NCBI GenBank assembly: GCA_937873495.1
Contig: CALMXZ010000012.1
Coordinates: forward strand, 186,001-250,000
Length of the DNA: 64,000 nucleotides
Direction of reading: 5' to 3'
Source: an uncultured Trueperaceae bacterium
Lineage (GTDB): Bacteria; Deinococcota; Deinococci; Deinococcales; Trueperaceae
Shown here: positions 48,334 to 51,136 of the stretch, one piece after another
Layout: each line of letters starts with the position of its first letter
Position numbering within the stretch: the first letter of the stretch is position 1
Program-made: the position numbers and the translations under genes
Notes under the pieces: model-generated
The model's input: only the letters and a program-made list of their open reading frames with translations
Told to the model about the DNA's origin: nothing
Database searches by the model: none

Positions 48334-49032
48334 TCAGGACTTGTAGTAGAGGATCCGACCGCAGCTCGGACAGCGCGTCACGCTGTCGGCGCGTTTGACC
48401 TTCTGCACGACGTGGATGGGCAGGCGGACGTTGCAGCCGCCGCACGTGCCGCCGCCGCCGACCTCGGCGAGCCCGAGCCCGCGCTTGGCCTTACGCACCT
48501 GCTCGTACTGCTGCAGCAGGGCGGGGGTGATGCCGTGCGCCAGGGCCGTGCGCTCCTGCGCGAGGCTGACGCTGCGCGCGTCGACCTCCGCCACCCGGTC
48601 GGCCTCGGCTTGCACCAACGCGGCGAGCTCAGGGACCAGCGCCGCCAGCTCGGCGTGCAGCCCCTCGACCTCGGCGTCCAGCGCCGCTTGGCTCTCGAGC
48701 AGCGGTAACGTGTCCTCCTCGAGCTCGGTCAGGCGGGTAGCGAACTGCAGCTCCTGGTTCTGGTACTGCGACGCTTCCTTGGAGGTCGAGGCCCGCACCG
48801 CGGAGTCGGCGGCGGAGCGCCGCCGCTCCTGCAGCGCCTTCAGCTCGAGTTCGTTGGCGTTCACGCGCTTCCGCAGCTCGTCCTGCGCCTGCTCCTTGAG
48901 CGCCGTCCGCGCCTCCAGGTCGCGCTTCTTGGCTTCGGTGGCCGTGAGCTCCGGGGGCACCTGACCGCGCTCTTCGCGCAAGCTGTCGAGCTTGAGGTCG
49001 AACGCTTGTACTTCGGCCAGTTGGTTGAGCAT
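48334..49032 (-). CDS. Coiled-coil zinc-ribbon protein (CT398-like)
   Basis: ATG 49032 (MLNQLAEVQAFDLKLDSLRE) gives 232 residues; an ATG directly upstream at 49035 adds one Met. A GGAGG is 4 bases before 49032. Residues 1-180 are a long charged coiled-coil, then a zinc ribbon (GGGGTCGGCNVRLPIHVVQKV and RCPSCGRILYYKS, with two CxxC pairs). This architecture is widely conserved (PF02591 type, e.g. CT398 of Chlamydia and Hp0958-like proteins, linked to flagellar or secretion assembly in some species). Its role here is not known. An intrinsic terminator and a leader peptide lie just upstream. Confidence 0.88.
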   Translation of the reverse strand: MLNQLAEVQAFDLKLDSLREERGQVPPELTATEAKKRDLEARTALKEQAQDELRKRVNANELELKALQERRRSAADSAVRASTSKEASQYQNQELQFATRLTELEEDTLPLLESQAALDAEVEGLHAELAALVPELAALVQAEADRVAEVDARSVSLAQERTALAHGITPALLQQYEQVRKAKRGLGLAEVGGGGTCGGCNVRLPIHVVQKVKRADSVTRCPSCGRILYYKS

Positions 49033-49115
49033 CATGCCTCCGGTAACGAAAAACCCCCGCCCGTGTACGGATGGGCGAGGGTGCGGTCTACGCCTAGGTA
49101 GTTCGGTCGAGTCAC
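49032..49115 (-). CDS. Candidate 27-codon leader peptide
   Basis: GTG 49115 lies 7 bases after the -10 TACACT (49128-49123), the leaderless spacing found at other genes here. The frame reads VTRPNYLGVDRTLAHPYTGG and stops at TGA 49034-49032, inside the ATGATG that starts the zinc-ribbon gene. It runs through the terminator stem at 49082-49053. The product is not known to be made; the placement suggests translation-dependent control. Confidence 0.5.
   Translation of the reverse strand: MTRPNYLGVDRTLAHPYTGGGFSLPEA
49049..49082 (-). terminator. Intrinsic terminator inside the leader (attenuator)
   Basis: On the minus strand: ACCCTCGCCC, loop ATCCGTACAC, GGGCGGGGGT, then TTTT. The 10-bp stem has one G-T pair and merges with a T5 run (49053-49049). 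It is the only hairpin with a real T-run in the window and ends 8 bases before the GGAGG of the next gene. Confidence 0.7.
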
Positions 49116-49122
49116 GCCCTGG

Positions 49123-49128
49123 AGTGTA
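49123..49128 (-). promoter_or_regulatory. -10 of the leader / zinc-ribbon transcript
   Basis: Minus-strand TACACT with an extended TGC in front (TGCTACACT). Confidence 0.6.
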
Positions 49129-49146
49129 GCACGCACTCTCGCGGGT

Positions 49147-49160: not shown

Positions 49161-49640
49161 ATGCTCGAGGACTCGCCAGAAGGCTTCGCTTCGCGTTGGG
49201 CACGGTACGCGGCAGAGGTCGAGTTGTTCCCGCGCACCGAGGGCAGCCCGCTCCTCGAGTGCAAGGCCGGTAGCGCGATGCTGCAGCTCTTCGAGCGCAC
49301 GGGCCCCTACCTGTCGCGCCCAGGCGCGAAGCGGGTCATCATCCACCCGCTAGCCGACGCGGTCGAGCGCGTGCCGTCCGACACCGTCCCGGCGCTCGCC
49401 GCCAACGGCATCAGCAGCCTGCAGGCGCAAGGCACCGTCCTGGCGGTGGAGGGGGAGTTCGTGGTCGTCGACGCCGGCGTGCCGCTGGTCGTCGGCTTGC
49501 GCGGCGAGCTGCCTGACGGCCTTGCGGTCGGGGAGTCGGTCCGCTTCGATAGTCCGGCGCCCGTTCACGGGTTCGTGATCTCGGCCCTCGCTTCGCTGCA
49601 GGTCGAGGCAAGGCGAGAGCGACACGAGGACCAGATCTGA
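49161..49640 (+). CDS. Protein of unknown function, 159 residues
   Basis: The soluble 159-residue protein begins MLEDSPEGFASRWARYAAEV. The second half has a compact beta pattern (GTVLAVEGEFVVVDAGVPLVVGLRGELPDGLAVGESVRFD), like a small S1/OB or cold-shock-type barrel. No family recognised. Leaderless promoter directly upstream. Confidence 0.7.
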   Translation: MLEDSPEGFASRWARYAAEVELFPRTEGSPLLECKAGSAMLQLFERTGPYLSRPGAKRVIIHPLADAVERVPSDTVPALAANGISSLQAQGTVLAVEGEFVVVDAGVPLVVGLRGELPDGLAVGESVRFDSPAPVHGFVISALASLQVEARRERHEDQI

Positions 49641-49723: not shown

Positions 49724-51136
49724 ATGCCGCGTGTCGTTCTGAGCCGCAAGGACCCTCAACCCGTCAAGATCACCCCCGCCCGCGTCCGCGAGGTGGCGGC
49801 GGGCTCGGCGGCGGCGAAGGCCGGCGTGGCGGCCGGCTGGGAGCTCCTCACGGTCAATGATCGGCCCATCCCGGACGTGCTCGCGTACCGCCGCGAACTC
49901 CAGGGTGGGGCGGCGGAGCTGCTCGTGAGGGCGCCAACGGGTGACGAGGTGAGGTTCACCGTCGCCTGGGAGGAGCCCGGCCTCGAGTTCGACGACGTCA
50001 TCTTCGACGGTATCCGGCTCTGCGCCAACCACTGCGACTTCTGCTACATCCACCAGATGCCCAAGGGCATGCGCAAGAGCCTCTACATCATGGACGACGA
50101 CTTCCGCACGTCGTTCCTCTACGGCTCGTTCGTCACCCTGACCAACCTTCGCGAGGGCGACGTGCAGCGCATCCTCGACGAGCACCTCAGCCCGCTGTAC
50201 GTGAGCGTCCACACGGCCAACGAGACCAAACGCGCCGAGCTCATGAAGTGGTGGCCGAACAAGGTCGCCACCGAGGAGGCCCTCAGCGTCCGCAACATGA
50301 TCGAGCGCTTGGAGAGCATCGAGCTCTACACGCAGATGGTCCTCGTTCCCGGCCGCAACGACGGCGACGACCTGGACGAGACGCTCGACTACCTTGCCTC
50401 CCGCCCGAACGTCCCCGCCGCCGCCGCCGTTCCGGTCGGCCTCACGGGGCACCGCTCGCACCTCGTCGCCCTCGAGCCGTACACGCCGGAGCAGGCGGCC
50501 GACGTGGTCGCGCGCGTGCACCGGTTCCAGCAGCGCATGCTGGCCGAGCGCGGTACCCGCTTCGTGTTCGCCTCCGACGAGTTCTACATCAGGGCCGGCC
50601 TCCCCCTGCCGGAGGACGAGGCTTACGAGGGTTACACCATGCTCGAGAACGGCGTCGGCATGGTCCGCGACTTCCTCTCGACGGGCATCCCCGCGCTGCC
50701 CGAGCGCCTCGACCGCCCGCGACGCGTGCTGATAGCGACGGGCAGGCTCTTCGCCCCCGTGTTGCGGGAGGCACTGCGGTCGCTCGGCACGGTGGAGGGG
50801 CTCGACCTGGAGGTGCGCGCCATCACGAACCGCACCTTCGGGGAGGTCACCACCGTCGCGGGCCTGCTCGCCGGCCGCGACATCCTTGGCGGCGTGCAGC
50901 CCGGCGAGGCCGACCTGCTGCTCCTGTCGCCGAACATGTTCAAGTACGGCACCGAGACGATGCTCGACGACCTGACCCGCAGCGACCTCCAGGCGGAGCT
51001 CGGCATGCGGGTCGCCGTCGGCGGCACGAACCTGGCCGAGCTCGTCGCCACGGTCCTGACCGGCGAGGTGCACGATCATCTGCCGAGCTTCGGCTTCTCG
51101 ACCCACGCCATCAAGGAAGCTGCCAAGCAGCACTGA
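49724..51136 (+). CDS. DUF512 protein: PDZ plus radical-SAM-like domain
   Basis: The 470-residue protein has an N-terminal PDZ-like domain (ITPARVREVAAGSAAAKAGVAAGWELLTVNDRPI), then the cluster motif C100-x3-C104-x2-C107 (CANHCDFCYIHQMPKG), the string LYIMDDDFRTSFLYGSFVTLTN, and a C-terminal DUF512 region (AFAPVL-like LFAPVLREALR, NMFKYGTETMLDDLT, DVAVGGTNLAELV-like end). The family is an uncharacterised radical-SAM-like enzyme often near der in Firmicutes. The reaction is unknown. A UbiA-family prenyltransferase follows 1 base later, suggesting an operon. Confidence 0.88.
   Translation: MPRVVLSRKDPQPVKITPARVREVAAGSAAAKAGVAAGWELLTVNDRPIPDVLAYRRELQGGAAELLVRAPTGDEVRFTVAWEEPGLEFDDVIFDGIRLCANHCDFCYIHQMPKGMRKSLYIMDDDFRTSFLYGSFVTLTNLREGDVQRILDEHLSPLYVSVHTANETKRAELMKWWPNKVATEEALSVRNMIERLESIELYTQMVLVPGRNDGDDLDETLDYLASRPNVPAAAAVPVGLTGHRSHLVALEPYTPEQAADVVARVHRFQQRMLAERGTRFVFASDEFYIRAGLPLPEDEAYEGYTMLENGVGMVRDFLSTGIPALPERLDRPRRVLIATGRLFAPVLREALRSLGTVEGLDLEVRAITNRTFGEVTTVAGLLAGRDILGGVQPGEADLLLLSPNMFKYGTETMLDDLTRSDLQAELGMRVAVGGTNLAELVATVLTGEVHDHLPSFGFSTHAIKEAAKQH

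Follow-up and report, generated by a model that had tools for sequence, protein, structure and literature searches.

A candidate ribosome-gated attenuator before a zinc-ribbon gene of Trueperaceae, seemingly set into an ancestral leaderless start site

The zinc-ribbon gene and its leader

The window analysed here, a stretch of 64,000 nucleotides, is part of contig C12 of a Trueperaceae bacterium (genome G000) from the phylum Deinococcota; the genomes closest to it in the collection are likewise assemblies of Trueperaceae. The minus strand carries a structural gene whose product matched the Pfam families PF24481 (46.1 bits, cut-off 27) and PF02591 (49.3 bits, cut-off 29.1). The protein joins a CT398_CC coiled coil to a C-terminal C4 zinc ribbon, as is characteristic of the CT398/HP0958-like proteins, and its relatives with solved structures in the PDB are CT398, MSMEG_4306 and HP0958. 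The gene starts at the ATG at 49032, or alternatively at an in-frame ATG at 49035. The features of the locus are listed in Table 1.

Table 1. Features of the zinc-ribbon locus and its leader; coordinates are positions in the window.
Feature	Position	Strand	Remarks
Extended -10 element TGCTACACT (predicted leaderless promoter)	49123-49131	-	7 nt before the GTG
Spacer of 7 nt between -10 and GTG	49122-49116	-	
Putative leaderless upstream open reading frame (uORF)	49032-49115	-	GTG start at 49115-49113; 27 codons and TGA; TGA inside the ATGATG of the gene
Predicted terminator hairpin ACCCTCGCCC/GGGCGGGGGT	49053-49082	-	Within the uORF; 10 bp, one U-G pair; 10-nt loop
T5 tract	49049-49053	-	Follows the hairpin; initial T paired within the stem
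Shine-Dalgarno (SD) GGAGG	49037-49041	-	Of the structural gene
Structural gene	48334-49032	-	232 aa; CT398-like coiled-coil hairpin and C4 zinc ribbon
Divergent gene	49161-49640	+	159 aa; no Pfam or NCBIfam match
DUF512/radical SAM protein gene	49724-51136	+	TIGR03279-like

A -10-like TAGACT of its own precedes the ATG of the divergent gene by 8 nt. The gene was matched beside the zinc-ribbon gene, at 33-100% identity, in all family loci but one (35 of 36); the exception is L008, where the contig breaks off shortly upstream of the zinc-ribbon gene. In the DUF512/radical SAM protein, an N-terminal PDZ-like region scored just below the Pfam cut-off.

The initial annotation of this DNA had listed a -10 element, a GTG, a 27-codon frame, a 10-bp stem with T5, a GGAGG and a TGA within ATGATG, and every one of these elements was recovered where it had been placed on the minus strand. 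In D. radiodurans and the Deinococcus-Thermus phylum, a -10 motif is found ~6-7 bp upstream of ORFs, and it stands directly upstream of ~30% of ORFs in the Deinococcota phylum (PMC12340547). The promoter of this leader has the Deinococcota form (TANNNT 6-7 nt before ATG or GTG), with a spacing of 7 nt here and of 6-8 nt when relatives are counted. The folding stability of the whole leader was ordinary for its composition (z = -0.5), and the case for a regulatory leader therefore rests on layout and conservation rather than on folding energy. The hairpin was also considered as the terminator of the divergent gene; this was ruled out, as the T run is on the wrong strand and the hairpin lies upstream of that gene.

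Conservation of the leader within Trueperaceae

The region upstream of the orthologous gene was read in 36 Trueperaceae genomes. The same layout of -10 element, start codon, linker, hairpin and gene start recurred in 35 of the 36 loci, where the -10 element is TG-n-TA-n-ACT or a near variant lying 6-8 nt before the start codon. The start codon of the uORF is GTG in 33 of these loci and ATG in two (L032 and L033); read at the level of sequence, this exchange is one that preserves a start codon and not a motif. An SD-like site was observed in 34 of the 35 leaders. Leader length spans 80-152 nt, while the distance between the start codon and the 3' foot of the hairpin stays within 55-71 nt in all 35. 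The sequence of the linker between the start codon and the hairpin is not conserved beyond the first codons. The initial annotation had made its leaderless frame, with a terminator inside the leader, depend on the conservation of both in relatives, and this comparison bears it out.

The stem was analysed for covariation in the 11 leaders of equal length (80 nt). Within it, 93% of the cells were paired, as against 29-54% when the stem was slid, and 11 two-sided changes were observed. None of 500 shuffles reached as high a value for the cells paired or for the covariation score; the counts of pairs and of pair types in the same 11-leader stem showed no excess over shuffles. The 8 nt that follow the G/C stem contain a mean of 4.9 T, compared with 1.6 per 8 nt in the linkers and 1.1 in the downstream flanks. 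This T-rich tail favours a terminator over a plain hairpin, with T tracts that are imperfect in genera g11, g14 and g16. The 35 sequences are related, and shuffle statistics of this kind therefore overstate their independence.

The frame of the uORF is free of stops through the hairpin in 31 of the 35 loci, compared with 21 and 24 for the other two frames. Shuffles that kept the composition gave 21.8 +/- 2.7 open frames and none of 2000 reached 31, these being counts that ignore the kinship of the loci; weighted by genus, the frame was open in 12 of 15 as against 7.9 and 7.9 in the other frames. The remaining four loci (L008, L016, L020 and L025) have a stop within -9 to +2 nt of the hairpin foot, and in the pair of close relatives L018 and L025 the early stop is present in one only. 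In total, 27 frames terminate at or beyond the start codon of the gene, and those leaders whose length (87, 105 or 129) puts the uORF in phase with the gene all contain a stop ahead of it. The peptide itself is unconserved and differs between genera, which makes translation as such, rather than its product, the likelier function. Its substitutions look unconstrained: every visible linker change in the g16 trio L015, L024 and L027 alters an amino acid, and a coding constraint on the peptide was rejected.

The sole exception among the 36 loci, L013, has neither the GTG nor the hairpin. It is nested within the family on the protein tree, where it pairs with L021 (support 96/69), and represents a natural loss case in which the uORF start and the terminator are both missing.

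Ancestry of the start codon

Outgroup loci were drawn from four other families of the order (L037-L059). All 23 showed a -10 motif 6-8 nt before a GTG or ATG in the reading frame of the zinc-ribbon gene, and an SD-like string was present in only one of them. Each outgroup genome examined thus appears to have a leaderless zinc-ribbon gene. The protein tree split the 36 Trueperaceae proteins from 22 outgroup proteins with a support of 100/100; as the root was placed at the midpoint, the direction of change was taken by parsimony.

On the simplest history, the GTG was ancestrally the start codon of the zinc-ribbon gene itself. Given that the outgroups start the gene at the same promoter and GTG or ATG, the terminator would have arisen between the ancestral leaderless start and the gene. 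The same simplest history has the terminator and a new SD-led start appearing on the Trueperaceae stem behind the old start codon, which would now be the start of the uORF. The switch therefore seems to have been inserted into the ancestral start site.

Probable attenuation by a translating ribosome, and its alternatives

We consider that the leader is probably a transcription attenuator coupled to translation, similar to pyrBI and pyrE, with a ribosome on the leaderless uORF, not an alternative RNA fold, acting as the antiterminator. Transcription would begin at the G of the GTG, and a ribosome could take the first codon directly as RNA polymerase releases it. The polymerase would next make the terminator, whose foot lies ~62 nt from the presumed 5' end. 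Unless a ribosome followed closely, the hairpin would form and transcription would stop before the gene. If a ribosome were translating the uORF, it would mask the 5' arm, whether it passed straight through or came to rest on a stop codon at the foot; the hairpin would then fail to form and transcription would continue. The input would be the speed of leaderless initiation and of the first codons relative to RNA polymerase. In most species the uORF reaches the start codon of the gene or stops just within it, so the same ribosome may restart there. No loading site could come earlier than a start codon at the very 5' end, and this is perhaps why the leaderless start was kept.

The arrangement expected of an attenuator was observed across the family: a predicted intrinsic terminator lies between the promoter and the structural gene in 35 of the 36 loci, and the short frame would place a ribosome on it, through the hairpin in 31 of 35 and by a stop at the foot in 4. 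Placing a stop codon 5 bp ahead of an intrinsic terminator lowered termination in E. coli from ~90% to <10% (PMC4824070). Mycobacteria translate messages with a leaderless GUG start (PMC4633059). In E. coli, suppression came much less readily when the terminator lay in the first 100 bp of a coding region (PMC4824070), which counts against the attenuator reading. Prompt loading at a leaderless start is our proposed answer to this limit. No conserved U-rich stretch was seen before the hairpin in the family leaders, pausing being a property that is not reliably readable from sequence.

Several known systems offer points of comparison. The pyrL leader of E. coli is SD-led and ~135 bp long, and pyrBI relies on UTP-sensitive pausing; at E. 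coli pyrE (orfE/rph), the upstream frame is a full gene that ends just before the terminator. The Trueperaceae leader resembles pyrBI, where the leader frame runs through an intrinsic terminator and a close ribosome prevents the hairpin (PMC5021804; PMC4824070), a likeness that implies no homology. It differs in that its frame is leaderless, measures ~80 nt and has no pause signal identified. The four leaders with a stop at the hairpin foot recall pyrE, although their upstream frame is leaderless and consists of 7-10 codons and a stop. The nearest leaderless relative in logic is ilvBNC of Corynebacterium glutamicum (PMC11857589), where IlvL has regulatory branched-chain codons and competing hairpins; the Trueperaceae leader has neither such codons nor an antiterminator. 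The leaderless uORFs of mycobacteria, polycysteine ones included, are also short and finish at or within the gene that follows, in many cases through an RTGA overlap (PMC4633059). The polycysteine uORFs encode conserved cysteine-rich peptides, whereas the Trueperaceae peptide is not conserved and the terminator lies inside the frame.

The initial annotation had read the leader as an attenuator switched by translation or by a ligand, with GGGCG at the 5' side of the transcript pairing with CGCCC of the terminator as the antiterminator. Its general class, a translation-controlled attenuator, fits best; the ligand switch and the pairing are not supported, and the ancestral role of the GTG as the probable gene start had been missed. 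With +1 presumed at the G of the GTG, four of the five GGGCG bases precede it and would be missing from a leaderless transcript, and the pairing therefore exists as letters only. Most relatives are moreover without GGGCG, for example L005 (cacccctGTG) and L018 (tatttttGTG). A more general form of the idea, in which the linker senses an amino acid or a ligand and forms an alternative antiterminator fold, draws on the usual signature of a 5'-leader terminator with a short frame upstream. This classic attenuator or riboswitch is nevertheless an improbable description of the leader. Pairing of the linker with the 5' arm of the terminator was slightly less than in its own shuffles (mean z +0.58), and no mutually exclusive antiterminator was visible. 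The linker, as noted, is not conserved, and it holds no aptamer-like element, which argues against a ligand. A search with the Rfam covariance models left the leader without a match, and within the window only a tRNA reached the gathering score. An amino-acid leader-peptide attenuator of the trp/ilv type was rejected in particular, since there is no regulatory codon run common to the genera and no antiterminator of the mutually exclusive kind.

The hairpin might instead hide or space the ribosome site without terminating, and translation of the uORF would open it for re-initiation. An overlap of 1-16 nt with the gene start is seen for many uORFs, and in g14 and g16, where the T tracts are weak, the SD has potential pairing partners in CU-rich bases ahead of the hairpin. 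Coupling of this purely translational kind seems rather unlikely, however, as the T-rich tail is kept across the family and the hairpin is far from the SD in g7, in the T. radiovictrix-like L019 and in L036. The predicted accessibility of the SD was also inconsistent, with a mean of 0.32 for the free leader and 0.44 with a ribosome on +1 to +45; sequestration of the SD was rejected for want of a consistent pattern. It is very unlikely that the GTG is a relic, a leftover start codon without a role in a frame open by chance. GC-rich DNA often leaves frames open, as the 21 and 24 of 35 in the other frames illustrate, and the gene probably once started at this GTG. A relic would, however, hardly have been retained as GTG or ATG 6-8 nt from the -10 in 35 loci of 15 genera, and in-frame stops within codons 3-8 occur in 1 locus as against 10 and 4 in the other frames. 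The promoter, the following 60-70 nt and the terminator also have the size of a small RNA gene, with the zinc-ribbon gene living on read-through. What was kept is a start codon and an open frame instead of a conserved linker, so such an RNA would be without a seed, and we regard this explanation as most unlikely.

A more specific version of the ribosome-gated attenuator is that the leader acts as a sensor dedicated to leaderless (70S) translation initiation, an ancestral leaderless start codon having been fused to a terminator ~62 nt away. Expression of the zinc-ribbon protein, taken in this version to be RNA-polymerase- or RNA-linked, would then require fast leaderless initiation, and the protein itself might exert feedback; we consider this extension doubtful. 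If attenuation by a leaderless ribosome is correct, it would provide an attenuator in which that ribosome is the antiterminator, and would give a widespread zinc-ribbon family a control element. It would also indicate a simple route to an attenuator, whereby an ancestral leaderless start is kept as the start of a uORF and a terminator and an SD-led start grow behind it. No earlier report of such an attenuator was found in the literature searched, whose coverage leaves out most subscription journals.

The layout was found to be rare. Four strict terminator-like sites with a T tract were identified in the 400 kb of contig C12 that include the window, and only the hairpin described here lies between a leaderless promoter and a gene. 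When searched from the promoter side, 22 extended -10 sites adjoin an ATG or GTG, five of these open a short frame, and one, the present locus, is then followed by a gene. In a sample of 1.2 Mb from three genomes (the own contig, G001 and G017, the G017 stretch being without the zinc-ribbon gene itself), the layout was found only in the orthologous leaders of the own genome and G001. Outside the window, at C12 position 91739 on the plus strand of G000, a 12-bp hairpin with a TTTT tail was observed 58 nt before an 888-aa open frame; it has no leaderless promoter and may be a second leader terminator.
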